Both the position numbers and the translations under genes were made by a program. DNA of 64,000 nucleotides from Ascidia mentula (Eukaryota > Chordata > Ascidiacea > Phlebobranchia > Ascidiidae). How positions within the stretch are numbered: position 1 is the stretch's first letter; every line of letters begins with the position of its first letter. Positions 3,168-19,759 of this stretch are shown one piece after another. The stretch is from NCBI GenBank assembly GCA_947561715.1, contig OX387200.1:1614501-1678500 (forward strand), in the 5' to 3' direction. The notes under the pieces were generated by a model, which was given only the letters and a program-made list of their open reading frames with translations, did no database searches and had not been told where the DNA came from.

Positions 3168-3175
3168 GAAATACA
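3168..3175. repeat. Left target-site duplication GAAATACA
   Basis: Identical to 19752-19759, directly abutting both outer ends of the transposon. Eight bases, no mismatch. Confidence 0.9.
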
Positions 3176-3375
3176 ACCACCGTCATTTCGGCGAAATGAA
3201 ATTTGGTTAAAACCGAAATTATTTCACGCATGAATGAACACGGCTTCAAACAATTGTGTTCACACAAAATAAGCATTAACTCACGAAAAAAACAAAAATG
3301 AGTTGTAATAACAAACATTTCAAATCAGGTGTCCAATATTTGCAAAACAATATCTACACTTTAAAATTGCAATTT
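3176..3375 (+). repeat. Left terminal inverted-repeat head
   Basis: About 200 bp of non-tandem sequence at the outer left end. It matches the reverse complement of 19551-19751 almost base for base, with only a handful of substitutions and a small indel near 3325. Small frames in it are artefacts of the repeat. It probably carries the transposase-recognised terminus. Confidence 0.9.
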
Positions 3376-6300
3376 TTGAACACCTATAAAGTACATAACA
3401 ACGAAATGGGTTTGACTGCGGTCACGCTGTGTGAATCCCAGCGATCGCGTATTTTCGGCGCTGCATACAAGTGCTAATTTAATGATGTTCCGGGCCATAG
3501 GATTTTTTAAAAATTGGTGTAGAATAGGCTTAGAACATGTAGATCACATTACAATAGCGTTTTTTGAACACCTATAAAGTATATCGCAACGAAATGGGTT
3601 TGACTGCGGTCACGCTGTGTGAATCCCAGTATTAGCGTATTTTCGGCGCTGCATACAAGTGCCAATTTAATAATGTTCCGGGCCATAGGATTTTTTAAAA
3701 ATTGGTGTAGAATAGGCTCAGAGCATGTAGATCACATTACAATAGCGTTTTTTGAACACCTATAAAGTATATCGCAACGAAATGGGTTTGACTGCGGTCA
3801 CGCTGTGTGAATCCCAGCGATCGCGTATTTTCGGCGCTGCATACAAGTGCCAATTTAATGATGTTCCGGGCCATAGGATTTTTTAAAAATTGGTGTAGAA
3901 TAGGCTCAGAACATATAGATCACATTACAATAGCGTTTTTTGAACACCTATAAAGTATATCGCAACGAAATGGGTTTGACTGCGGTCACGCTGTGTGAAT
4001 CCCAGCGATCGCGTATTTTCGGCGCTGCATACAAGTGCTAATTTAATGATGTTCCGGGCCATAGGATTTTTTAAAAATTGGTGTAGAATAGGCTTAGAAC
4101 ATGTAGATCACATTACAATAGCGTTTTTTGAACACCTATAAAGTATATCGCAACGAAATGGGTTTGACTGCGGTCACGCTGTGTGAATCCCAGTATTAGC
4201 GTATTTTCGGCGCTGCATACAAGTGCCAATTTAATAATGTTCCGGGCCATAGGATTTTTTAAAAATTGGTGTAGAATAGGCTCAGAGCATGTAGATCACA
4301 TTACAATAGCGTTTTTTGAACACCTATAAAGTATATCGCAACGAAATGGGTTTGACTGCGGTCACGCTGTGTGAATCCCAGCATGCATGCGCATTGTTCG
4401 TCAAAGGCTTTGACTCAAACAGAAGGCAGTGAGCATTTGCGGCGCTGCATACAAGTGCCAATTTAATAATGTTCCGGGCCATAGGATTTTTTAAAAATTG
4501 GTGTAGAATAGGCTCAGAGCATGTAGATCACATTACAATAGCGTTTTTTGAACACCTATAAAGTATATCGCAACGAAATGGGTTTGACTGCGGTCACGCT
4601 GTGTGAATCCCAGCGATCGCGTATTTTCGGCGCTGCATACAAGTGCTAATTTAATGATGTTCCGGGCCATAGGATTTTTAAAAAATTGGTGTAGAATAGG
4701 CTTAGAACATGTAGATCACATTACAATAGCGTTTTTTGAACACCTATAAAGTATATCGCAACGAAATGGGTTTGACTGCGGTCACGCTGTGTGAATCCCA
4801 GTATTCGCGTATTTTCGGCGCTGCATACAAGTGCCAATTTAATAATGTTCCGGGCCATAGGATTTTTTAAAAATTGGTGTAGAATAGGCTCAGAGCATGT
4901 AGATCACATTACAATAGCGTTTTTTGAACACCTATAAAGTATATCGCAACGAAATGGGTTTGACTGCGGTCACGCTGTGTGAATCCCAGCATGCATGCGC
5001 ATTGTTCGTCAAAGGCTTTGACTCAAACAGAAGGCAGCGATCGCGTATTTGCGGCGCTGCATACAAGTGCCAATTTAATAATGTTCCGGGCCATAGGATT
5101 TTTTAAAAATTGGTGTAGAATAGGCTCAGAGCATGTAGATCACATTACAATAGCGTTTTTTGAACACCTATAAAGTATATCGCAACGAAATGGGTTTGAC
5201 TGCGGTCACGCTGTGTGAATCCCAGTATTAGCGTATTTTCGGCGCTGCATACAAGTGCCAATTTAATAATGTTCCGGGACATAGGATTTTTTATAAATTG
5301 GTGTAGAATAGGCTTGGAACATGTAGATCACATTACAATAGCGTTTTTTGAACACCTATAAAGTATATCGCAACGAAATGGGTTTGACTGCGGTCACGCT
5401 GTGTGAATCCCAGCATGCATGCGCATTGTTCGTCAAAGGCTTTGACTCAAACAGAAGGCAGTGAGCATTTGCGGCGCTGCATACAAGTGCTAATTTAATG
5501 ATGTTCCGGGCCATAGGATTTTTTAAAAATTGGTGTAGAATAGGCTTAGAACATGTAGATCACATTACAATAGCGTTTTTTGAACACCTATAAAGTATAT
5601 CGCAACGAAATGGGTTTGACTGCGGTCACGCTGTGTGAATCCCAGCGAACGCGTATTTTCGGCGCTGCATACAAGTGCCAATTTAATGATGTTCCGGGCC
5701 ATAGGATTTTTTAAAAATTAATGTAGAATAAGCTCAGAACATGTAGATCACATTACAATAGCGTTTTTTGAACACCTATAAAGTATATCGCAACGAAATG
5801 GGTTTGACTGCGGTCACGCTGTGTGAATCCCAGCGAACGCGTATTTTCGGCGCTGCATACAAGTGCCAATTTAATGATGTTCCGGGCCTTAGGATTTTTT
5901 AAAAATTAATGTAGAATAGGCTCAGAACATGTAGATCACATTACAATAGCGTTTTTTGAACACCTATAAAGTATATCGCAACGAAATGGGTTTGACTGCG
6001 GTCACGCTGTGTGAATCCCAGCGAACGCGTATTTTCGGCGCTGCATACAAGTGCCAATTTAATGATGTTCCGGGCCATAGGATTTTTTAAAAATTGGTGT
6101 AGAATAGCCTCAGAACATGTACATCACATTACAATAGCGTTTTTTGAACACCTATAAAGTATATCGCAACGAAATGGGTTTGACTGCGGTCACGCTGTGT
6201 GAATCCCAGCGAACGCGTATTTTCGGCGCTGCATACAAGTGCCAATTTAATGATGTTCCGGGCCATAGGATTTTTTAAAAATTGGTGTAGAATAGCCTCA

Positions 6301-8712
6301 GAACATATAGATCACATTACAATAGCGTTTTTTGAACACCTATAAAGTATATCGCAACGAAATGGGTTTGACTGCGGTCACGCTGTGTGAATCCCAGCGA
6401 TCGCGTATTTTCGGCGCTGCATACAAGTGCTAATTTAATGATGTTCCGGGCCATAGGATTTTTTAAAAATTGGTGTAGAATAGGCTTAGAACATGTAGAT
6501 CACATTACAATAGCGTTTTTTGAACACCTATAAAGTATATCGCAACGAAATGGGTTTGACTGCGGTCACGCTGTGTGAATCCCAGCATGCATGCGCATTG
6601 TTCGTCAAAGGCTTTGACTCAAACAGAAGGCAGCGATCGCGTATTTGCGGCGCTGCATACAAGTGCCAATTTAATAATGTTCCGGGCCATAGGATTTTTT
6701 AAAAATTGGTGTAGAATAGGCTCAGAGCATGTAGATCACATTACAATAGCGTTTTTTGAACACCTATAAAGTATATCGCAACGAAATGGGTTTGACTGCG
6801 GTCACGCTGTGTGAATCCCAGTATTAGCGTATTTTCGGCGCTGCATACAAGTGCCAATTTAATAATGTTCCGGGACATAGGATTTTTTATAAATTGGTGT
6901 AGAATAGGCTTGGAACATGTAGATCACATTACAATAGCGTTTTTTGAACACCTATAAAGTATATCGCAACGAAATGGGTTTGACTGCGGTCACGCTGTGT
7001 GAATCCCAGTATTAGCGTATTTTCGGCGCTGCATACAAGTGCCAATTTAATAATGTTCCGGGACATAGGATTTTTTATAAATTGGTGTAGAATAGGCTTG
7101 GAACATGTAGATCACATTACAATAGCGTTTTTTGAACACCTATAAAGTATATCGCAACGAAATGGGTTTGACTGCGGTCACGCTGTGTGAATCCCAGCAT
7201 GCATGCGCATTGTTCGTCAAAGGCTTTGACTCAAACAGAAGGCAGTGAGCATTTGCGGCGCTGCATACAAGTGCTAATTTAATGATGTTCCGGGCCATAG
7301 GATTTTTTAAAAATTGGTGTAGAATAGGCTTAGAACATGTAGATCACATTACAATAGCGTTTTTTGAACACCTATAAAGTATATCGCAACGAAATGGGTT
7401 TGACTGCGGTCACGCTGTGTGAATCCCAGCGAACGCGTATTTTCGGCGCTGCATACAAGTGCCAATTTAATGATGTTCCGGGCCATAGGATTTTTTAAAA
7501 ATTAATGTAGAATAAGCTCAGAACATGTAGATCACATTACAATAGCGTTTTTTGAACACCTATAAAGTATATCGCAACGAAATGGGTTTGACTGCGGTCA
7601 CGCTGTGTGAATCCCAGCGAACGCGTATTTTCGGCGCTGCATACAAGTGCCAATTTAATGATGTTCCGGGCCATAGGATTTTTTAAAAATTAATGTAGAA
7701 TAAGCTCAGAACATGTAGATCACATTACAATAGCGTTTTTTGAACACCTATAAAGTATATCGCAACGAAATGGGTTTGACTGCGGTCACGCTGTGTGAAT
7801 CCCAGCGAACGCGTATTTTCGGCGCTGCATACAAGTGCCAATTTAATGATGTTCCGGGCCTTAGGATTTTTTAAAAATTAATGTAGAATAGGCTCAGAAC
7901 ATGTAGATCACATTACAATAGCGTTTTTTGAACACCTATAAAGTATATCGCAACGAAATGGGTTTGACTGCGGTCACGCTGTGTGAATCCCAGCGAACGC
8001 GTATTTTCGGCGCTGCATACAAGTGCCAATTTAATGATGTTCCGGGCCATAGGATTTTTTAAAAATTGGTGTAGAATAGCCTCAGAACATGTACATCACA
8101 TTACAATAGCGTTTTTTGAACACCTATAAAGTATATCGCAACGAAATGGGTTTGACTGCGGTCACGCTGTGTGAATCCCAGCGAACGCGTATTTTCGGCG
8201 CTGCATACAAGTGCCAATTTAATGATGTTCCGGGCCATAGGATTTTTTAAAAATTGGTGTAGAATAGCCTCAGAACATGTAGATCACATTACAATAGCGT
8301 TTTTTGAACACCTATAAAGTATATCGCAACGAAATGGGTTTGACTGCGGTCACGCTGTGTGAATCCCAGCGAACGCGGATTTTCGGCGCTGCATACAAGT
8401 GCCAATTTAATGATGTTCCGGGCCATAGGATTTTTTAAAAATTGGTGTAGAATAGCCTCAGAACATGTACATCACATTACAATAGCGTTTTTTGAACACC
8501 TATAAAGTATATCGCAACGAAATGGGTTTGACTGCGGTCACGCTGTGTGAATCCCAGCGAACGCGGATTTTCGGCGCTGCATACAAGTGCCAATTTAATG
8601 ATGTTCCGGGCCATAGGATTTTTTAAAAATTGGTGTAGAATAGCCTCAGAACATGTACATCACATTACAATAGCGTTTTTTGAACACCTATAAAGTATAT
8701 CGCAACGAAATG
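3376..8712 (+). repeat. Left arm tandem array, 27 units of 188 bp (5 long units)
   Basis: The anchor CCTATAAAGTATATCGCAAC recurs at 3383 (variant), 3571, 3759, 3947, 4135, 4323, 4555, 4743, 4931, 5167, 5355, 5587, 5775, 5963, 6151, 6339, 6527, 6763, 6951, 7139, 7371, 7559, 7747, 7935, 8123, 8311, 8499 and 8687 (partial). Most steps are 188 bp. Five steps are 232 or 236 bp because an extra ~44-48-bp block starting CATGCATGCGCATTG replaces the usual CGATCG/TATTAG/CGAACG segment. Copies are nearly identical. Short frames such as 4924-5106 and 6520-6702 are shadows of the repeat, not genes. Confidence 0.95.
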
Positions 8713-8825
8713 AACTTGTCCCAGATGTATTTTTCTGAAATTTTGCTGAGAAACTTGTACTTTTCGATGTCTTCTATATTGTCAGACAGGCGACTAAATG
8801 AAAACCAAATTTGAAACCCGTCAAC

Positions 8826-9217
8826 AAAAACAATGGAAGCGATGAATCGATTGAACAATTGCTCCCTTTGGTTTGGCAAGGATTATTTTTTTTCTTCCCG
8901 CAGACTTCGATCGCATAACCCTTTAACTTCACTGATAGTAAAGTAAATTGGCAGGCCAGACAGCAGACGTGATAAAACTTAAAGGGTCGTAAATTAAAAC
9001 AATGGAACAAGGAACTGATTGAACAATTGTATCCTACGAAGTGGCAAAATTTATTTTACTTCCCACAAGGTCCGAAACGTCAGAACTTGATTGATCAAGA
9101 CGTGAACAAACTTGGAAGGACGCATATAAAAACAAAGGAAGCTGCGAACCGATCGAACAATTGTTTTGCGGAAAACTTTGGAAATTGATTTCCCTTCCCG
9201 CAGGTTTAGAAACGTAG
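8826..9217 (+). repeat. Three diverged subterminal repeats upstream of the transposase
   Basis: Three related stretches lie between the left array and the first coding exon: about 8826-8913, 8996-9080 and 9129-9217. Each starts near AAAACAATGGAA, continues with a GATTGAACAATTGT-like block, then a TTGGCAA/GTGGCAA-like block, and ends near CTTCCCGCAGG. They are far more diverged than the 188-bp units. They could be transposase or promoter binding repeats; this role is inferred from position. Confidence 0.6.
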
Positions 9218-9431
9218 CAATTGTTGCATCTTATGTGTTTCGATTTGTCCCCCGTTGGGCTTGACCGGCCCAGTCAAATCGCCAATTTACTTTTCGATCT
9301 GTCAAATCATTTTTTTCTTTTTTTGCGAACACCCTATTAAAACTCGTGTGTTTTTAAATTCTGTCATAATATGAACAACTTACAACAAGTCAGCGAGTTG
9401 ACTTTGAGAAGCTAGTTGTTATTTTTGCAGT

Positions 9432-12400
9432 ATGGTCACATTCAGAGAAGTTATTTTCAAGATTTTTGTGCCATGTGTTGCTGGTAGCAATTTAAAACGC
9501 AGAGAGGTTGCAAAGGCGACCGACTGTAGTTTTCGTCCCTATGTTGGACAATGTTTTGGAGGTAAGCATGTCGTGGGTGAAAATTTGTTAAACCCCATGG
9601 CATGGATTTGGTTGTTACGCATTTTATTTTTTTTGGTCCAAGATTTTTTTTTCGTTTTATTAGCATTTCTTGTGTTTTACACACTATTTATGTTGTACTG
9701 TTTGTGTGCTATTGGCACTGGCTACATATTTAGCGTTGTTCTGCATGCATTACTACATGTACCTGGTCCACACAGAATTTATGTTAGACTGTTTTCTACT
9801 TCTAATTGTGCTCACCCGAGGCAGCCTAATCTAATATATGGCATAAAATTGCACCGGCTTACGCAGTCTAGGTAAGTTAATGTGGTGTGTAACGCGCACT
9901 GGTGGTTCCAGATTTGTAACTTCCGAAGACAAAATGAACCTCATTGCAAAGTATTTGTCCATGCGTGGTCGTAAAAAATTTAGTAGAAACCAAGCACAAG
10001 ACTTTCTCAGCAACTGTAATCTTTGGGAGGGTTTGCATTCCAGGAAACGCGTGAAACGGCTTTTTAACTTTTGTCGTTCTTTTCGCACGGAAATTAATAC
10101 TTTATTACGTAAATGTACTGGCTTTGAATCCACGCCGTTTAGAAAACAGAATATTTTTTTTAGTGCTGTGCCGTCACTGGTAAAACATTTACACAGATAT
10201 CCAAACACTTCAAAATTGCCGTGTAAGGCGGTTAATGCCACGTTGAAGTCTTGCAAAATTGCCCTAAGCACAAAAAACAAGCTTAAAGTGAACAGACTCT
10301 GGGTAATAGACCCGATGTTTCGACAATCTGTACAAGATTTGTATAACAGGTCAAAGGGATTTAATACTACACCAGTCCCAGTATTAAGTAGTAGTACCCC
10401 TTCACGTTCTGAAGATCTTTTCTGCATTTGCAAAACCCCTTATGATGGTAGATTGATGGTAGAATGCGAAACATGCAAACAATGGTTTCACCCTAGTTGT
10501 GTTTTTACAAGTTTGTCTGTTCCCGCAACACTTTCTGAAAAACAATGGAAACGTTCTCGCCTCGTTTGTCCAGGTGTAAAACTTTCCTCACCACATAGCT
10601 ATGAGCACATGTTGGTTGAAAGTGAAAGCATGGACGGTTTAGTTGGTGATAGAGACCCAAGTTTACCTTCCTCAAGCAAACGTTGTAAGGTAAGTTTGTC
10701 TCCTATATTACCGGATGTACCTATTTCTCCAATTAGAAACACACTGGATAATTTGTCCAGTGAAATAACCTCTGAAACTTCCCCTAATGTAACAGAAACG
10801 TTTGAGGACGATATGGCAACAATTGTATATCGTGATTTACCTTTTGATGAAAATGCTGACGTTTTAAGTGAACTTGGGGGAATAAGTAACGAAACAAAGC
10901 AAAAGTTTCCGCACACAGCAGACGTCAATATAGATGGTGTGTTTGTTCTATCTGTGCAGGAATGGCAGTCATTAGTCAAAAATAGATCCGTCAACCATTT
11001 TGCTAACGATTTTTACATAGGAGTAACAATTAGGGAAATTCGCAAAATATACCCAGGCTGTGTTCCAAACGTGTCCAACAACTATCTTATGAGTTTTGAT
11101 GGGGTAAAAGACATTACAAAGGAAGAAAAATGTTATAAAGAAGGTTGGATTAACTTTTATTGCGGTCACCGCAGATGTGAAGATTGTGTGTGTGGAGTCA
11201 GGTTTGTAGTAACGTTTTGGTCTTTTGTTGATAAAGTTGAAGGAAGGGTTAAAATATCAGGTAAGCGTAACCACCTACCAGGCTGTAAGAAAAGTAGACG
11301 AATAACTGGAATAATGAGGAGGAAACTTCGAAAGACATTGGTTCATCAAACCGCTGTCAAGCAGCATCGCACATTATTTAACACGCTTTATCCAGAAGAA
11401 CGATGGCTGGGTGCCCATACGTACCTGCCTTCCCAATCGGTCTTGAACAATATAAAAAGCGAAACGTATCTCGGAACACGTAGAAGTAAGTTGTGGTTTA
11501 TTAATTTGGATTGTTTGCGTGTCGTGTTGGCAAATCAAAATAAACCATTTATCAGGAACATTCGTTTACACCCTCCAGAAGTAACGCTATATTCCAATGC
11601 ACAAATAAAAATTTTTAATCAAATTTGTGCCTTTGATATTGCGTACTTGGATGCGACCGGCAGCGTGCTTCGACGCATGGAAAGTTACTCTGATTTTCAA
11701 ATATATACATTACTAATTCGAAACCCTAATAAGGGTGGGACACCGCTTCCAGTTGCAACTCACGTAACATCGAAGCATGATGCGGTAAACATCAGTCATT
11801 TTTTGGAAACATTTTTGTCGGATTGCCTCAAAATATGCAGCACCGTACGCAAACCAAAACTACTTGTTATTGATGGCTCGTTCGCTATGTGGAACTCCGC
11901 TTTAAAGGCATTTTGTCACGAAACACGATTGACCTTTTACAACCGATGTTACCGTATTGTTACAGGAGTTCCGTTGAAGAATGACATGCAAGAAACTTTC
12001 GTGCACAATTGCTATAGCCATGCCATGAAAGCAGCTAAAGTGCTATGCAACAAGTATAGTGAAAATAAAAAACTCCTGAAAACATACTTGTATTGGATTA
12101 ATGCATTTTTTTGTTTCTGTAACTATTTTTGAACTAGATAGTATGGTGGAAAGTTTTATAGTTTTAACCAATAACGAATCCACTTCATCATTAGTGGAAC
12201 TTCATTTTAAGCGTTTAAAAGAAAAGGTATTTTCTGACCAAGCCGACTGCGACATTAACGAAGGCGAATGTTTTGTTTCTAATTCCGATTTTGTTTACAC
12301 ATCCAAGCATTCAGATAAACTGCAAGAACGCCAATCACCTTTTTATCTCAGATATCGAAGCAAGCTTGACTCCTACTTGAAGTCGGATGTGTCCCAGAAG

Positions 12401-13675
12401 TTCAATACAAGTACCAGTAAAAATGTGTATTACAACCCAACATTTTGTGCACGTGTAATAGAAATAATTTTGAGTAGAATTTGTGCTACATCAAAATTAC
12501 TGCTGGGGGATTTATCCCGACATATAAACAAAGAAAAAACCACTTATCAACAGGAACAACTGTTTAATATGTACTCAAGTAAATGTAACTTGTTAAAAAA
12601 TTGTAAACATCAGACCATTTTACAGAACAATCAAACGCAAGGAATAATCGAAGAGCATTTTGGTGACCTGAAATCAAACATATTAGACGGAAAAAGAGTT
12701 GCGCGATTAGATGAATTTGTCATTAAATATCATGAATCAATACTAATTTTACAAAAATTATTTGCAGATTCCATTACACATTTAGGTACCAAGCCTGGTA
12801 GACGTACAAATGTCACTTCGGATGCTGTCAAGCGTACGCAGGTGGTAGAATCTAAATTCAAAAAGAGAAAAAGAAAAGAGAAAAGTTTTTACTCTTCAGA
12901 AACGTTTTCTCAAAATCTGAAATACGCAAATAAGCCATGCGATTCCTCTCAAAAATTCGAAAAACTTATTGTCACCCCAGTTCTGCCACGTTTTACGTTT
13001 TGTCCAGATCACAGCGAAATTCATACATCGTGCAAAGATCTTGCTTACTATGTTTGGCATCTTATTCCATTTACTCCCACTTCTATTTTTAATACAGCTT
13101 TAGTCACGCCTTCTGGTGAGTCACTGTCATGGTTGGATTTGTGTTCGCTTTGCAGTAAACCTAGAGGTAAAACCTATATCTCTTTAACTCAAAATCCAAT
13201 CAACATTCATAATGATGCAACGATTGGATGGTTAACCAATAATGTAGTAGATTGTTATATTTCCAGAACAGTCAGAAATGCTAATTCCGTACACCCTGGT
13301 AAGTTTGGTTTTCTTTCAACCGTATTAGCATGTGAAATACTGAGTGGAAAGAAGTTAAAAAACATACGAAGGGCATGCCATGGAATGTTTTTTGGAGAAA
13401 AATTGTGCGAAAATATTTTCATTCCAACATTGTTCGAGCGACATTTTGTGGTTTTATGGTTTAAACAGGTTAATGGAGAACTGATACTTTTTAATTCAGC
13501 TCCGGGGTCCAGCAGACAATTATCAAGTTTAATTAGGAAAAACTTGATACCGATTTTATGCGTTTTCACAAGCAATGAAATCATACAGAAAAACAGCTCA
13601 CTAGTTGAGCAGGAAGATTTGTCAAGTTGCGGCTTATGTGCATGTTTTACTGTTGACACCATAACTATGTACTGA
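9432..13675 (+). CDS. DDE transposase with PHD finger and C-terminal Ulp1-like protease
   Basis: A three-exon model stays in frame: 9432-9561, 9872-12089 and 12142-13675, giving 1293 aa. The second intron (12090-12141, 52 nt, GT-AG) removes the stop that otherwise splits the gene; the first intron is less certain. In order: a PHD-type zinc finger (10417-10580; CIC, CETC, HPSC, with the last canonical Cys replaced), a Cys/His cluster (from 11160; CGHRRCEDCVC to GKRNHLPGC) like MULE N-terminal zinc modules, then an RNase H-fold core. In the core I read the first Asp in YLDATG and the second in LLVIDGS, followed by a C..H pair and an N..IIEEHFGDLK block (12640-12680) that may hold the Glu. The last third matches Ulp1/C48 proteases: a WLTNNVVDCYI motif, a HFVVL His, a LFNS block (Asn where Asp is usual) and a SSCGLC Cys. 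The fusion suggests the transposase acts on SUMO-type modifiers; that is inference. Confidence 0.75.
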
Positions 13676-13719
13676 AGGTAAGTGAATTGGAATTTGTTGT
13701 TGCGCGCTTTCGCATTTGG

Positions 13720-15258
13720 ATGTTATACGCGTTAGTTGAAGACTCTGCAAGTTGCAGCGACAAAGTTGCACTATTTTTGAAGAAAAATAGTTTGGTCCAG
13801 CTGGGTCTCCCTAATGTTCACAACAACTGTTGGTTAAGTAGTCTGTTTCAAGCAGCCCAATGTTTATTTGATGAGATTCCAGCGGCTACCATCGGTGAAA
13901 CTTTACGAGAAAGAATCGCTAACTTCATTTGTCGCCTCTATCTCAAACAATCAGATAACAACTTGTACTTGCAGTTGGTCAAAGATGTATGTGGCGCACT
14001 TGGCTGGAAGTTGGGTCAGCAACAAGACCCAAATGAATTTTTAATGGTATTTGATTTTAGCTCTATTTTAAAATACTGTAATCTTAACATGTGTTTTCAG
14101 TACAAAACATCTGCAACTTGCCAGTCCTGTGGTAATGTTACCGAGTCAGTGCAAGAACAATCTCTACTGACGTTGCCTGTTGCCGATAACATTGCTGACA
14201 ATAGTGATCTGGCCACATACTGTGATGCTGAGTTTCGAAACACGGTATTTAGGACATGCCCCTTTTGTCATAAACAAGCTACCACAAATATGGAAGGCCA
14301 GATCACTGATGTTTCGAATATATTGTGTATTGGACTTCACAGAAATGTGGATGGCCACAAACGAAAGAGAAGAATCGTTCCAAATCAGGTTTTACATATT
14401 TCGCAACATTTCTCTTTTCAGTTAGTGTCCGTTCTCGTGCACATTGGAGACAGTGTAAGCTCGGGTCACTACGTGGCGTATCAATTTTGTGAATCTGGTT
14501 TAACTGAATTTGATGACGCAGTTTTAAAACACGTCACTTGGGCTAGTGTTAAAGAAAGAATTCTTACTGGTTGTTGTACATTATTTTACAAAAGAGTTAA
14601 ATCTAACCTTCACGATCCTAACCAGCAACCAAAGATTGTAATTCGTCGGAAGCGACGCCGCTTCAACGAAGAGGCAGCAAAATCAACCGAATGCCTGGTT
14701 TATAAAAATATTACTTTAAAACAACAAGTTAACGGTAAAGATGTTGAAATTTCGGAATTGGACGATTTATCTTCAGACATTAAAGATATCTACGATTTCG
14801 TTGCGAAACAGCTCAAAACAGTTCTTTTTCAGACGTTTGAACAAGGTCAGTTCCGGACAGATTGTTACCGCCTTTGTTTATGTTACCGGGAACACACTAA
14901 AAGCCTTATAATGTATAATCAAACTGTACGGCAACAAATATTATCGGCAAATGTCCATATGAACCTTTGGAGATTTGTAGAGTTCTCCTTTTGTCAACTC
15001 CTTATCCGACAACAACTCGTGGGGACACAAATTTTTCGAGAATCTATTGCTGATTTTGTGCTAAAACCTGAGTTGATCAGTAAACATACCATGTTGGGAC
15101 ATATAGTGTTGGACAAAAAGATAAAATCCAGGTTTATTTTGTGTCAAATACTCAATTTTGAGGCAGAAATTCTGTACGTAATGAAATTTAATAATTTTAC
15201 GTACGAAGATGCCTCTCTTAAGCTTGGTTTTCCTGCACTGATGTACAAAAATCTATAA
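13720..15258 (+). CDS. Ubiquitin-specific protease (USP, C19) carried by the transposon
   Basis: An open frame with all three USP signatures. The Cys box is GLPNVHNNCWLSSLFQ (about 13804-13850), then the QQ box GQQQDPNEFL, a zinc-ribbon pair (CQSC and CPFC), and the His box VSSGHYVAY followed by FDD and a closing LFYKR. The catalytic Cys, His and Asp are all present. About 240 C-terminal residues match nothing I know. The core is shorter than in most USPs. The first in-frame ATG is at 13720, but the frame is open from 13657. A perfect donor (AAGGTAAGTG) follows the transposase stop, and a GT-AG pair at 13669/13757 would fuse this frame to the Ulp1 ORF. So it is either a separate gene or the end of one polyprotein. 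USPs remove ubiquitin; here it might stabilise the transposase or disarm host silencing factors (inference). Confidence 0.75.
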   Translation: MLYALVEDSASCSDKVALFLKKNSLVQLGLPNVHNNCWLSSLFQAAQCLFDEIPAATIGETLRERIANFICRLYLKQSDNNLYLQLVKDVCGALGWKLGQQQDPNEFLMVFDFSSILKYCNLNMCFQYKTSATCQSCGNVTESVQEQSLLTLPVADNIADNSDLATYCDAEFRNTVFRTCPFCHKQATTNMEGQITDVSNILCIGLHRNVDGHKRKRRIVPNQVLHISQHFSFQLVSVLVHIGDSVSSGHYVAYQFCESGLTEFDDAVLKHVTWASVKERILTGCCTLFYKRVKSNLHDPNQQPKIVIRRKRRRFNEEAAKSTECLVYKNITLKQQVNGKDVEISELDDLSSDIKDIYDFVAKQLKTVLFQTFEQGQFRTDCYRLCLCYREHTKSLIMYNQTVRQQILSANVHMNLWRFVEFSFCQLLIRQQLVGTQIFRESIADFVLKPELISKHTMLGHIVLDKKIKSRFILCQILNFEAEILYVMKFNNFTYEDASLKLGFPALMYKNL

Positions 15259-16378
15259 AATCCATGTTGTTGTGAATACTTTGTGTCGATTTGTGTTCAT
15301 TCCCGTGACTGTATGTTTGTTGTATGAGACTTTTTAAAACTTCACCAACGTGAAACCAAAAGAAAATATTTGTGTTGTTTGGGTCGTTGCATGCCTTAAG
15401 TTGTAGTAGTCGCAATTATGCTGTGAATGTTTTGTTTTTGTGTTAATCTTATATTTTTTGCATTTGCCGCTAGGACAAACCTCTTGTACTTAAAATCGTT
15501 GTTGCGTTAATCAATGTAAGGCCAGATATGATATTTTACCCAATAATTTTAAAGGCCGTGGTCTACTTATGCTAAAATCTTATTAGAACTTGCTTTAACT
15601 TTAAACTCCAACTTCAATCTGCCAAATAACTGTTTATTTGTTAAATCTTTAAAATAAATCCACTACGGTTGCCGGAACCTTGACGTGGTGTAGTGGCTTT
15701 AAACAAATACCGGCAAGTGATACAATATGTTTGTAAAATTATTTTTGCAAAAGCTTATGTGACTTTAAACACAATTCAAAGCGTTTTTTACCGCCCAAAA
15801 GTATCCTTGTGCCCTTTTATTGAATGGTAATGTAAAATCATTTACATTAATTACAAAAATTTTGTTTGTAGTTTGTCAACCCACCGTCGTAGCTGCCCCA
15901 CAAGTAGTGAGAAGCTGCAACACTATGGTTTCTAGCAAACGAAAAGAAAGATGAATTTTAAACAACTTGCCTGTATCGCAACAGAGGCCTCGTTGGAAGT
16001 GCGGCCGCACACAATGCCCCCAGGAATTTCTTAAAATTTTTTTTTTAATGATGCTAAATAGCTGAGTATGCTGCGACGCACCATTGACGCCTTGTTAAAT
16101 CCCCATTGGGCTTTGCTACGCCACACAAGATAAAGAATCGTCACTTAATCAATGAAAACGTTCACCCACATAATTCACTGTAATGTGATATCAGTTAAAC
16201 GTCGACGTTGCCACTTAAAATTCATCCCACACATTTTCGAAACACGGACATATTCGAAAATACCTCCATTTGTGTTTTGAATGATTTTTTTTCGCAACAT
16301 TTACATTGTTATGCGTGGGCGGAAATAAAAAAGGGGAGATTGTGATACTAAGAGGTATATTTAATTAACATAACATAA
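15259..16378. other. Right non-coding segment of the transposon
   Basis: AT-rich, no supported gene. It follows the USP stop and ends at the inner edge of the right tandem array. An AAATAAA near 15651 could serve as a polyadenylation signal for the element's transcript. No copies of the three left-side subterminal repeats were recognised here. Confidence 0.5.
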
Positions 16379-19300
16379 TCGTTGCGATATATTTTATAGG
16401 TGTTCAAAAAACGCTATTGTAATGTGATCTACATGTTCTGAGCCTATTCTACACCAATTTTAAAAAATCCTATGTCCCGGAACATTATTAAATTGGCACT
16501 TGTATGCAGCGCCGCAAATGCTCACTGCCTTCTATTTGAGTAAAAGCCTTTGACGAACAATGCGCATGCATGCTGGGATTCACACAGCGTGACCGCAGTC
16601 AAACCCATTTCGTTGCGATATACTTTATAGGTGTTCAAAAAACGCTATTGTAATGTGATCTACATGTTCTGAGCCTATTCTACACCAATTTTCAAAAAAA
16701 TCCTATGGCCCGGAACATCATTAAATTAGCACTTGTATGCAGCGCCGAAAATACGCTAATACTGGGATTCACACAGCGTGGCCGCAGTCAAACCCATTTC
16801 GTTGCGATATACTTTATAGGTGTTCAAAAAACGCTATTGTAATGTGATCTACATGCTCTGAGCCTATTCTACACCAATTTTTAAAAAATCCTATGGCCCG
16901 GAACGTCACTAAATTGGCACTTGTATGCAGCGCCGAAAATACGCGAATACTGGGATTCACACAGCGTGACCGCAGTCAAACCCATTTCGTTGCGATATAC
17001 TTTATAGGTGTTCAAAAAACGCTATTGTAATGTGATCTACATGTTCTGAGCCTATTCTACACCAATTTTCAAAAAAATCCTATGGCCCGGAACATCATTA
17101 AATTAGCACTTGTATGCAGCGCCGAAAATACGCTAATACTGGGATTCACACAGCGTGACCGCAGTCAAACCCATTTCGTTGCGATATACTTTATAGGTGT
17201 TCAAAAAACGCTATTGTAATGTGATCTACATGCTCTGAGCCTATTCTACATTAATTTTTAAAAAATCCTATGGCCCGGAACATCATTAAATTAGCACTTG
17301 TATGCAGCGCCGAAAATACGCTAATACTGGGATTCACACAGCGTGACCGCAGTCAAACCCATTTCGTTGCGATATACTTTATAGGTGTTCAAAAAACGCT
17401 ATTGTAATGTGATCTACATGCTCTGAGCCTATTCTACATTAATTTTTAAAAAATCCTATGGCCCGGAACATCATTAAATTAGCACTTGTATGCAGCGCCG
17501 AAAATACGCTAATACTGGGATTTACACAGCGTGACCGCAGTCAAACCCATTTCGTTGCGATATACTTTATAGGTGTTCAAAAAACGCTATTGTAATGTGA
17601 TCTACATGTTCTGAGCCTATTCTACATTAATTTTTAAAAAATCCTATGGCCCGGAACATCATTAAATTAGCACTTGTATGCAGCGCCGAAAATACGCTAA
17701 TACTGGGATTCACACAGCGTGACCGCAGTCAAACCCATTTCGTTGCGATATACTTTATAGGTGTTCAAAAAACGCTATTGTAATGTGATCTACATGCTCT
17801 GAGCCTATTCTACACCAATTTTTAAAAAATCCTATGGCCCGGAACATTATTAAATTGGCACTTGTATGCAGCGCCGAAAATACGCGAATACTGGGATTCA
17901 CACAGCGTGACCGCAGTCAAACCCATTTCGTTGCGATATACTTTATAGGTGTTCAAAAAACGCTATTGTAATGTGATCTACATGCTCTGAGCCTATTCTA
18001 CACCAATTTTTAAAAAATTCTATGGCCCGGAACATTATTAAATTGGCACTTGTATGCAGCGCCGCAAATGCTCACTGCCTTCTGTTTGAGTCAAAGCCTT
18101 TGACGAACAATGCGCATGCATGCTGGGATTCACACAGCGTGACCGCAGTCAAACCCATTTCGTTGCGATATACTTTATAGGTGTTCAAAAAACGCTATTG
18201 TAATGTGATCTACATGCTCTGAGCCTATTCTACACCAATTTTTAAAAAATCCTATGGCCCGGAACATTATTAAATTGGCACTTGTATGCAGCGCCGAAAA
18301 TACGCTAATACTGGGATTCACACAGCGTGACCGCAGTCAAACCCATTTCGTTGCGATATACTTTATAGGTGTTCAAAAAACGCTATTGTAATGTGATCTA
18401 CATGCTCTGAGCCTATTCTACACCAATTTAAAAAAAATTCTATGGCCCGGAACATTATTAAATTGGCACTTGTATGCAGCGCCGAAAATACGCTAATACT
18501 GGGATTCACACAGCGTGACCGCAGTCAAACCCATTTCGTTGCGATATACTTTATAGGTGTTCAAAAAACGCTATTGTAATGTGATCTACATGCTCTGAGC
18601 CTATTCTACACCAATTTTTGAAAAATCCTATGGCCCGGAACATTATTAAATTGGCACTTGTATGCAGCGCCGAAAATACGCTAATACTGGGATTCACACA
18701 GCGTGACCGCAGTCAAACACATTTCGTTGCGATATACTTTATAGGTGTTCAAAAAACGCTATTGTAATGTGATCTACATGCTCTGAGCCTATTCTACACC
18801 AATTTAAAAAAAATTCTATGGCCCGGAACATTATTAAATTGGCACTTGTGTGCAGCGCCGCAAATGCTCACTGCTTTCTGTTTGAGTCAAAGCCTTTGAC
18901 GAACAATGCGCATGCATGCTGGGATTCACACAGCGTGACCGCAGTCAAACCCATTTCGTTGCGATATACTTTATAGGTGTTCAAAAAACGCTACTGTAAT
19001 GTGATCTACATGCTCTGAGCCTATTCTGCACCAATTTTTAAAAAATCCTATGGCCCGGAACATTATTAAATTGGCACTTGTATGCAGCGCCGAAAATACG
19101 CGAATACTGGGATTCACACAGCGTGACCGCAGTCAAACCCATTTCGTTGCGATATACTTTATAGGTGTTCAAAAAACGCTATTGTAATGTGATCTACATG
19201 CTCTGAGCCTATTCTACACCAATTTTTAAAAAATCCTATGGCCCGGAACATCATTAAATTAGCACTTGTATGCTGCGCCGAAAATACGCCATCGCTGGGA

Positions 19301-19550
19301 TTCACACAGCGTGACCGCAGTCAAACCCATTTCGTTGCGATATACTTTATAGGTGTTCAAAAAACGCTATTGTAATGTGATCTACATGTTCTAAGCCTAT
19401 TCTCCACCAATTTATAAAAAATCCTATGGCCCGGAACATCATTAAATTGGCACTTGTATGCAGCGCCGAAAATACGCGAATGCTGGGATTCACACAGCGA
19501 CACCGCAGTCAAACCCATTTCGTTGTTATATACTTTATAGGTGTTCAAAA
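16379..19550 (-). repeat. Right arm tandem array, 16 inverted units
   Basis: The same unit as the left array in inverted orientation. The reverse anchor TATAGGTGTTCAAAA recurs at 16395, 16626, 16815, 17003, 17192, 17380, 17568, 17756, 17944, 18176, 18364, 18552, 18740, 18972, 19160, 19348 and 19536. Steps are 188-189 bp, with three long steps of 231-232 bp carrying the extra CATGCATG-type block. Variant composition differs from the left arm (for example CGAACG versions are rare here), so the two arms have partly homogenised on their own. Confidence 0.95.
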
Positions 19551-19751
19551 ATTGCAATTTTAAAGTGTAGATATTGTTTTGCAAATATTGGTCACCTTGC
19601 TGATTGAAATGTTTGTTATTACAACTCATTTTTGTTTTTTTCGTGAGTTAATGCTTATTTTGTGTGAACACAATTGTTTGAAGCCGTGTTCATTCATGCG
19701 TGAAATAATTTCGGTTTTTACCAAATTCCATTTCGCCGAAATGACGGTGGT
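19551..19751 (-). repeat. Right terminal inverted-repeat head
   Basis: Reverse complement of the left head (3176-3375), nearly identical, ending at …GACGGTGGT next to the target duplication. The plus-strand frame over 19579-19776 is a mirror of the minus-strand frame at 3121-3318 and is not a gene. Confidence 0.9.
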
Positions 19752-19759
19752 GAAATACA
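19752..19759. repeat. Right target-site duplication GAAATACA
   Basis: Identical to 3168-3175 and abuts the right end (…GACGGTGGT). This fixes the right boundary of the element. Confidence 0.9.

Follow-up and report, generated by a model that had tools for sequence, protein, structure and literature searches.

Plant MULEs of the Kaonashi type carry Ulp1-like genes. For the MULE/Mutator elements, including Phantom and the Foldback-type Tm1, the accounts available to us give target-site duplications (TSDs) of 8–11 bp; some of these elements have Foldback-like inverted arms and some carry Ulp1 (PMC2836005, PMC3169594, PMC6446971). Rehavkus is described in the available passages as encoding, in a single ORF, a transposase with a PHD finger, and as having tandem repeats at its inverted termini (PMC6446971; PMC10218199). 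The 9.5-kb Rehavkus-1_TC of Tribolium has a repeat unit of 164 bp (PMC6446971; PMC10218199); the hosts named are arthropods and annelids, and the TSD is 9 bp (PMC6446971). Ginger1 transposases are described as having a C-terminal Ulp1 or OTU domain, in one case together with a PHD finger, and Ulp1 or OTU is also reported from Mutator elements and Helitrons, while a Trichomonas protein combines transposase and Peptidase C19 domains (PMC2836005). An OTU domain is noted in the cnidarian MULE MuDR-6_HM (PMC6446971), and an 8-bp TSD is given for Zisupton, one of the KDZ group of Zisupton, Kyakuja and Dileera (PMC12730594). We compared these systems with an element from the ascidian Ascidia mentula, which lies in a stretch of 64,000 nucleotides (the window, C67:1614501-1678500).

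Anatomy and copies of the element

The window holds a DNA transposon with array-built arms that was mobile in recent times and, judging from its ends, is of the cut-and-paste type (Table 1). It is bounded by a perfect 8-bp duplication, and the limits proposed in a first-pass annotation of the locus proved exact to the base: ACCACCGTCATTTCGGCGAAATG starts at 3176 and its inverted copy is found at 19751. On both sides, a non-arrayed terminal repeat of ~200 bp is followed by an array of 188-bp units, confirming that the inverted arms are built from arrays, and the left and right arms align at 88.7% over about 3.4 kb.

Table 1. Features of the element, in window positions
Feature	Position	Strand	Basis or remark
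Whole element	3176..19751		bounded by 8-bp TSD
Left TSD, GAAATACA	3168..3175	.	sequence read
Right TSD, GAAATACA	19752..19759	.	sequence read
Left terminal inverted repeat, non-arrayed	3176..3372	+	genome matches and end pairs
Left arm, tandem 188-bp units	3373..8712	+	
Start of the fused protein (MVTFREV...)	9408..9875	+	joined in frame in sister copies only
Open piece: PHD finger, zinc cluster, first two DDE-like motifs	9847..12132	+	
PHD finger (Pfam PF00628)	10423..10548	+	Pfam 1.9e-7
Putative transposase core	11482..12108	+	motifs by eye
Core motifs	Asp 11650-11652 (DATG), Asp 11872-11874 (IDGS), CxxH 12010-12021	+	
Open piece: Ulp1-like domain, preceded by a candidate catalytic Glu (12650-12652)	12080..13675	+	
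Ulp1-like (C48-like) domain	12974..13672	+	profile and alignment
Ulp1-like residues	His 13442-13444, Asn 13493-13495, Gln 13610-13612, Cys 13628-13630	+	
Open piece: USP (C19) domain (13804-14556), then a conserved C-terminal extension	13657..15258	+	
USP catalytic residues	Cys 13828-13830, His 14467-14469, Asp 14515-14517	+	
Right arm, inverted 188-bp-unit array	about 16573..19551	-	
Right terminal inverted repeat, non-arrayed	19552..19751	-	genome matches and end pairs

We searched the A. mentula genome (195.8 Mb, 79 contigs) for further copies. The terminal repeat gave 41 matches. Twenty end loci (L029-L048) were analyzed, of which 18 form nine pairs; the two unpaired ends (L038 and L039) were left out. 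All nine pairs are flanked by a perfect 8-bp TSD. Five pairs enclose full-length copies of 13.5-20.2 kb with 14-28 unit matches in each arm, and these five copies show the long, length-variable inverted arms of tandem repeats that make up the Foldback-type structural class. The remaining pairs are partly too small to hold the frame (e.g., 1.8 and 2.4 kb). At C71:810486-841778, a perfect 8-bp TSD, CAAATTTC, flanks two terminal repeats that are separated by 31 kb; this is either a much larger element or one that contains a nested insertion.

A single intact frame of 1,953 aa is present in four of the five full-length copies. In the window copy, frameshifts split the fused frame into four open pieces. 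The intact frames differ from each other at 4-28 of 5,859 nt, indicating recent spread. Whole-genome searches returned at least 89 matches with the USP frame and at least 95 with the middle frame. Among the matches listed, the PHD finger, the Ulp1-bearing middle frame and the USP run uninterrupted at 17 loci (open-frame lengths cross-read by hand); four of these frames measure 1,953 aa and the other 13 measure 1,871-2,596 aa. The 13 divergent loci are 29-47% identical to the window in the USP and 37-56% in the middle frame; two of them, both of 2,596 aa, scored identically and are near-identical copies. Fragments and stop-bearing sequences account for many of the further matches listed. Sister copies thus carry both isopeptidases between array-type arms and 8-bp duplications, a finding that the first-pass annotation had named as support for its proposal. 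The frames do not occur only in the window, and copy number, TSDs and divergent relatives rule out that the USP is a host gene. We also scanned viral contigs with profiles of the Ulp1-like domain, the USP and the transposase core, and no relative was confirmed there.

Domains of the fused protein

In the fused frame, a PHD finger and then a zinc cluster precede the DDE-like core, after which come the Ulp1-like domain and, last, the USP. Two basic stretches, KFKKRKR and RRKRRR, are mostly conserved across the family alignment and would fit a nuclear protein.

The USP frame of the window matches Pfam UCH at 7.3e-11, and UCH is matched by nine of nine family members. The best PDB matches of the USP are USP12, USP46 and USP36. 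The Cys, QQD, His and Asp boxes, together with two CxxC pairs, are invariant in nine aligned sequences, and the complete Cys/His/Asp set that had been claimed is in place in the window frame. The best Pfam USP score among the element copies (1.3e-21) belongs to the most diverged locus, C69:11174804. The boxes, the CxxC pairs and the UCH match place the domain in Peptidase C19 (USP). The first-pass annotation had placed this USP in a separate gene adjacent to the transposase; its presence and its catalytic set stand, but the separate gene does not, the two being fused in one frame in sister copies.

The Ulp1-like domain required profile comparisons. A Pfam scan for C48 found nothing in the window copy or in L010, and five of the nine family members matched C48 when E values of up to 10 were allowed, the best being 1.2e-4. 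A profile of the nine members matched SENP1 structures at E 0.009, with the catalytic His, Asp/Asn, Gln and Cys aligned. By hhalign, the comparison with a pair of C48 domains found in further transposon-like frames from the same genome gave 88.8% (E 2.5e-6), and two unrelated controls gave 0.1%. His, Gln and Cys are invariant in all nine aligned sequences; the Asp column holds Asn in L010, L025 and L027, and the window family has Asn. Structure prediction from the single sequence was unusable (mean pLDDT 33.5). Catalytic order and profile similarity thus point to Peptidase C48 (Ulp1/SENP), although the homology is weak by sequence. Elsewhere in the genome, a dense cluster of exon-sized C48 (SENP-like) matches at C1:26842845-27066601 (E down to 1.4e-13) has the appearance of host SENP genes that were amplified in tandem.

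Some viruses use C48-like proteases for protein processing. The Ulp1-like domain might likewise cut the fused protein into transposase and USP, and in the alignment it does sit between the two. However, a conserved site of the di-glycine type was not seen by eye at the domain borders in the alignment, and we consider such processing unlikely.

Upstream, a cysteine/histidine cluster followed by D (DATG), D (IDGS), CxxH and a candidate E (TQGIIE) is conserved in five sequences. A D-D-E with CxxH after the second D, the pattern read here by eye, would be a MULE-like signature. The core gave no Pfam or PDB match to transposase families. For the MULE domain PF10551, Pfam found no match in the four family proteins scanned, none of 49 genome matches falls inside the 17 intact loci, and hhalign of the core with one MULE-like stretch gave 0.5-0.7%. 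The KDZ domain PF18758 has nine genome matches, none at element loci. Membership in the MULE and KDZ groups was dropped because no model matched. Thus, of the proposed DDE transposase ending in an Ulp1-like domain, the ending is borne out by the profile comparisons and the DDE part is a putative assignment from motifs alone. The kinship with Foldback/NOF or MULEs that the first-pass annotation had evoked is not supported, and Rehavkus is anatomically closer.

The same genome holds a second element group (e.g., L003, L004 and L008), in which C48 domains are found ~2 kb away from several MULE domains (PF10551). Several frames of 590-628 aa have Ulp1 and then a PHD finger, and a SWIM-like motif was seen by eye in L004 and L003. 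A KDZ-type transposase is present in three stop-bearing copies (C1:22282332, C1:23775444 and C71:14021956).

Taken together, we regard it as almost certain that this is an array-armed element with a PHD/zinc cluster/DDE-like/Ulp1-like/USP fusion.

Selection on the protease domains and arrays in divergent relatives

We estimated dN/dS (NG86) for seven locus pairs and four segments; 24 of the 28 cells were estimable. All 24 estimates are below 1 and 19 of them lie at 0.15-0.41, the others being 0.14, 0.14, 0.53, 0.54 and 0.61. The values of 0.53 (USP, L010/L013) and 0.54 (Ulp1, L017/L018) come from six changes each, and that of 0.61 (USP, L014/L015) from 23 changes, 7 synonymous and 16 nonsynonymous. 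The pairs with the most changes in both protease domains are L025/L027 (USP 0.26, Ulp1 0.28, end of the transposase 0.26) and L016/L019 (0.22, 0.31 and 0.15, respectively). Purifying selection on the USP across diverged families thus indicates that the element has had this domain for a long time and did not pick it up as recent cargo: the captured USP beside a transposase that had been envisaged is instead fused to it. Locus L019 is a mosaic over the stretch compared. Its transposase part follows L016 (90-99%) and, from near the start of Ulp1, it follows L017 (93-97%), showing that the protease module moved as a block between lineages at least once.

The proteases might be functionless passengers, because the window copy is broken and many matches are stop-bearing. 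However, frames are open at 17 loci among the matches listed, the catalytic residues are invariant in the nine sequences aligned for each domain, apart from the Asp/Asn column of Ulp1, and dN/dS is below 1 in 24 of 24 estimates. These results largely refute the idea of passengers and leave it highly improbable.

We next examined the 3' flanks of the frame at 15 divergent loci (1,500 bases at decayed loci) and found arrays of 181-206-bp units in 13. In all ten better-kept loci (L014-L019, L025-L028), the array begins 384-1079 bp past the stop. Three of the five decayed loci (L020, L022, L024) have 206-bp arrays; the other two (L021, L023) have no array within 1,500 bases 3' of the frame. Terminal repeats of 80-81% identity near two divergent loci (C71:17177727 and C67:13126512) would fit inverted left arms there.

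Unit consensuses of the window and of seven divergent loci were compared using 100 shuffles per pair. When the window unit was compared with each of the seven others, none of 100 shuffles reached the score. Among the 21 remaining pairs, at least one shuffle reached the score in eight, with up to 53/100 for L014/L018 and 81/100 for L015/L018. The common part centres on one box per unit, near ATTTAAAAAAATCCTATGGCCCGGAAA, the middle of which is altered in L014 and L015. A motif shared by the array unit and the terminal 40 bp was not significant (26-196 of 200 shuffles reached its score). Because shuffles match in 8 of 21 pairs and there is no significant link to the terminal 40 bp, the box is only a candidate binding site. 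Across 193 units, we found no signal of concerted evolution within elements, divergence being 2.6-2.8% within and between elements alike. The unit length corresponds to that of a nucleosome repeat, which we take as a lead only.

Proposed role and comparison with known systems

We propose, with a probability of about 0.5, that the element has the anatomy described above and that its isopeptidases act locally, in cis, at the arms. The transposase would bind the arms, the box common to the diverged array units being the candidate site, and as a result of this proposed binding to the arrays dozens of protein copies would gather along several kilobases per arm. There, the Ulp1-like domain and the USP would remove SUMO and ubiquitin; the targets may be histones, proteins involved in silencing or repair, or the transposase. 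The outcome would be accessible arms and a complex that stays stable while transposing. The first-pass annotation had suggested that the element may counter host silencing based on SUMO and ubiquitin or stabilize its own transposase; either role may apply. That related copies have retained the fusion suggests possible interference of the element with a tagging system of its host.

Alternatively, the proteases may act on their own protein, de-ubiquitination and de-SUMOylation prolonging the life of the transposase with no role in chromatin. Given a fusion in cis this is the shortest path, and it is equally compatible with selection on both domains, yet it leaves unexplained the retention of the PHD finger and of nucleosome-length arrays alongside the proteases; we find it possible but rather doubtful. 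Another possibility is that, once the DNA has been cut, the isopeptidases target factors of DNA repair or of the checkpoint, the role proposed for Ulp1 and OTU in Ginger1 (PMC2836005). Nothing in that proposal is specific to this element, however, and we think it distinctly improbable.

Local action at the arms could be part of a larger picture. The family may stand next to Rehavkus as a lineage, perhaps even as a separate superfamily, in which the transposase is a PHD chromatin reader and a double eraser of SUMO and ubiquitin, placed on nucleosome-spaced binding arrays to give an anti-silencing zone. We offer this tentatively, at less than even odds. The element bears on the question of whether transposons directly counteract control by SUMO and ubiquitin. 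Domain expression and active-site mutation offer a way to test this, because the fusion, its deep conservation and near-identical intact copies are found in a chordate with a public genome and RNA-seq. An array in which one box is preserved although the remainder of the unit has diverged also provides a handle on the purpose of repeat-built arms.

By anatomy, Rehavkus is the closest known kind, the comparison being with its description and not with its transposase sequence. Like Rehavkus, the family has a PHD finger in the transposase protein, a single ORF and arrayed inverted termini. Unlike Rehavkus, it has a TSD of 8 bp (nine of nine pairs) and not 9 bp, the element is larger and the host is a chordate; in the available passages on Rehavkus, Ulp1 and USP go unmentioned (PMC6446971, PMC10218199). 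We have not filed the family as Rehavkus, because its TSD is not the 9 bp of that group and Rehavkus was compared by description only. With some MULE/Mutator elements it shares Foldback-like inverted arms, Ulp1 and a TSD within 8-11 bp, but PF10551 has no match in the proteins scanned or at the intact loci, and the available passages note no USP for MULEs (PMC2836005, PMC3169594, PMC6446971). As in Ginger1, Ulp1 lies C-terminal to the putative transposase core; unlike the window family, Ginger1 is described as having an integrase-type core, one protease per protein and TIRs of 44-270 bp (PMC2836005). The 8-bp TSD is shared with Zisupton, whereas none of the nine KDZ model matches lies at the element loci.

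The first-pass annotation knew of no element that joins repeat-built arms with both isopeptidases. Our reading agrees: the open-access literature searched, which excludes Repbase Reports and subscription papers, yielded no report of Ulp1 and USP in one transposon. Transposases with Ulp1 or OTU tails are already known; what is new here is the joint fusion of Ulp1 and USP with a chromatin-reader domain and array arms.
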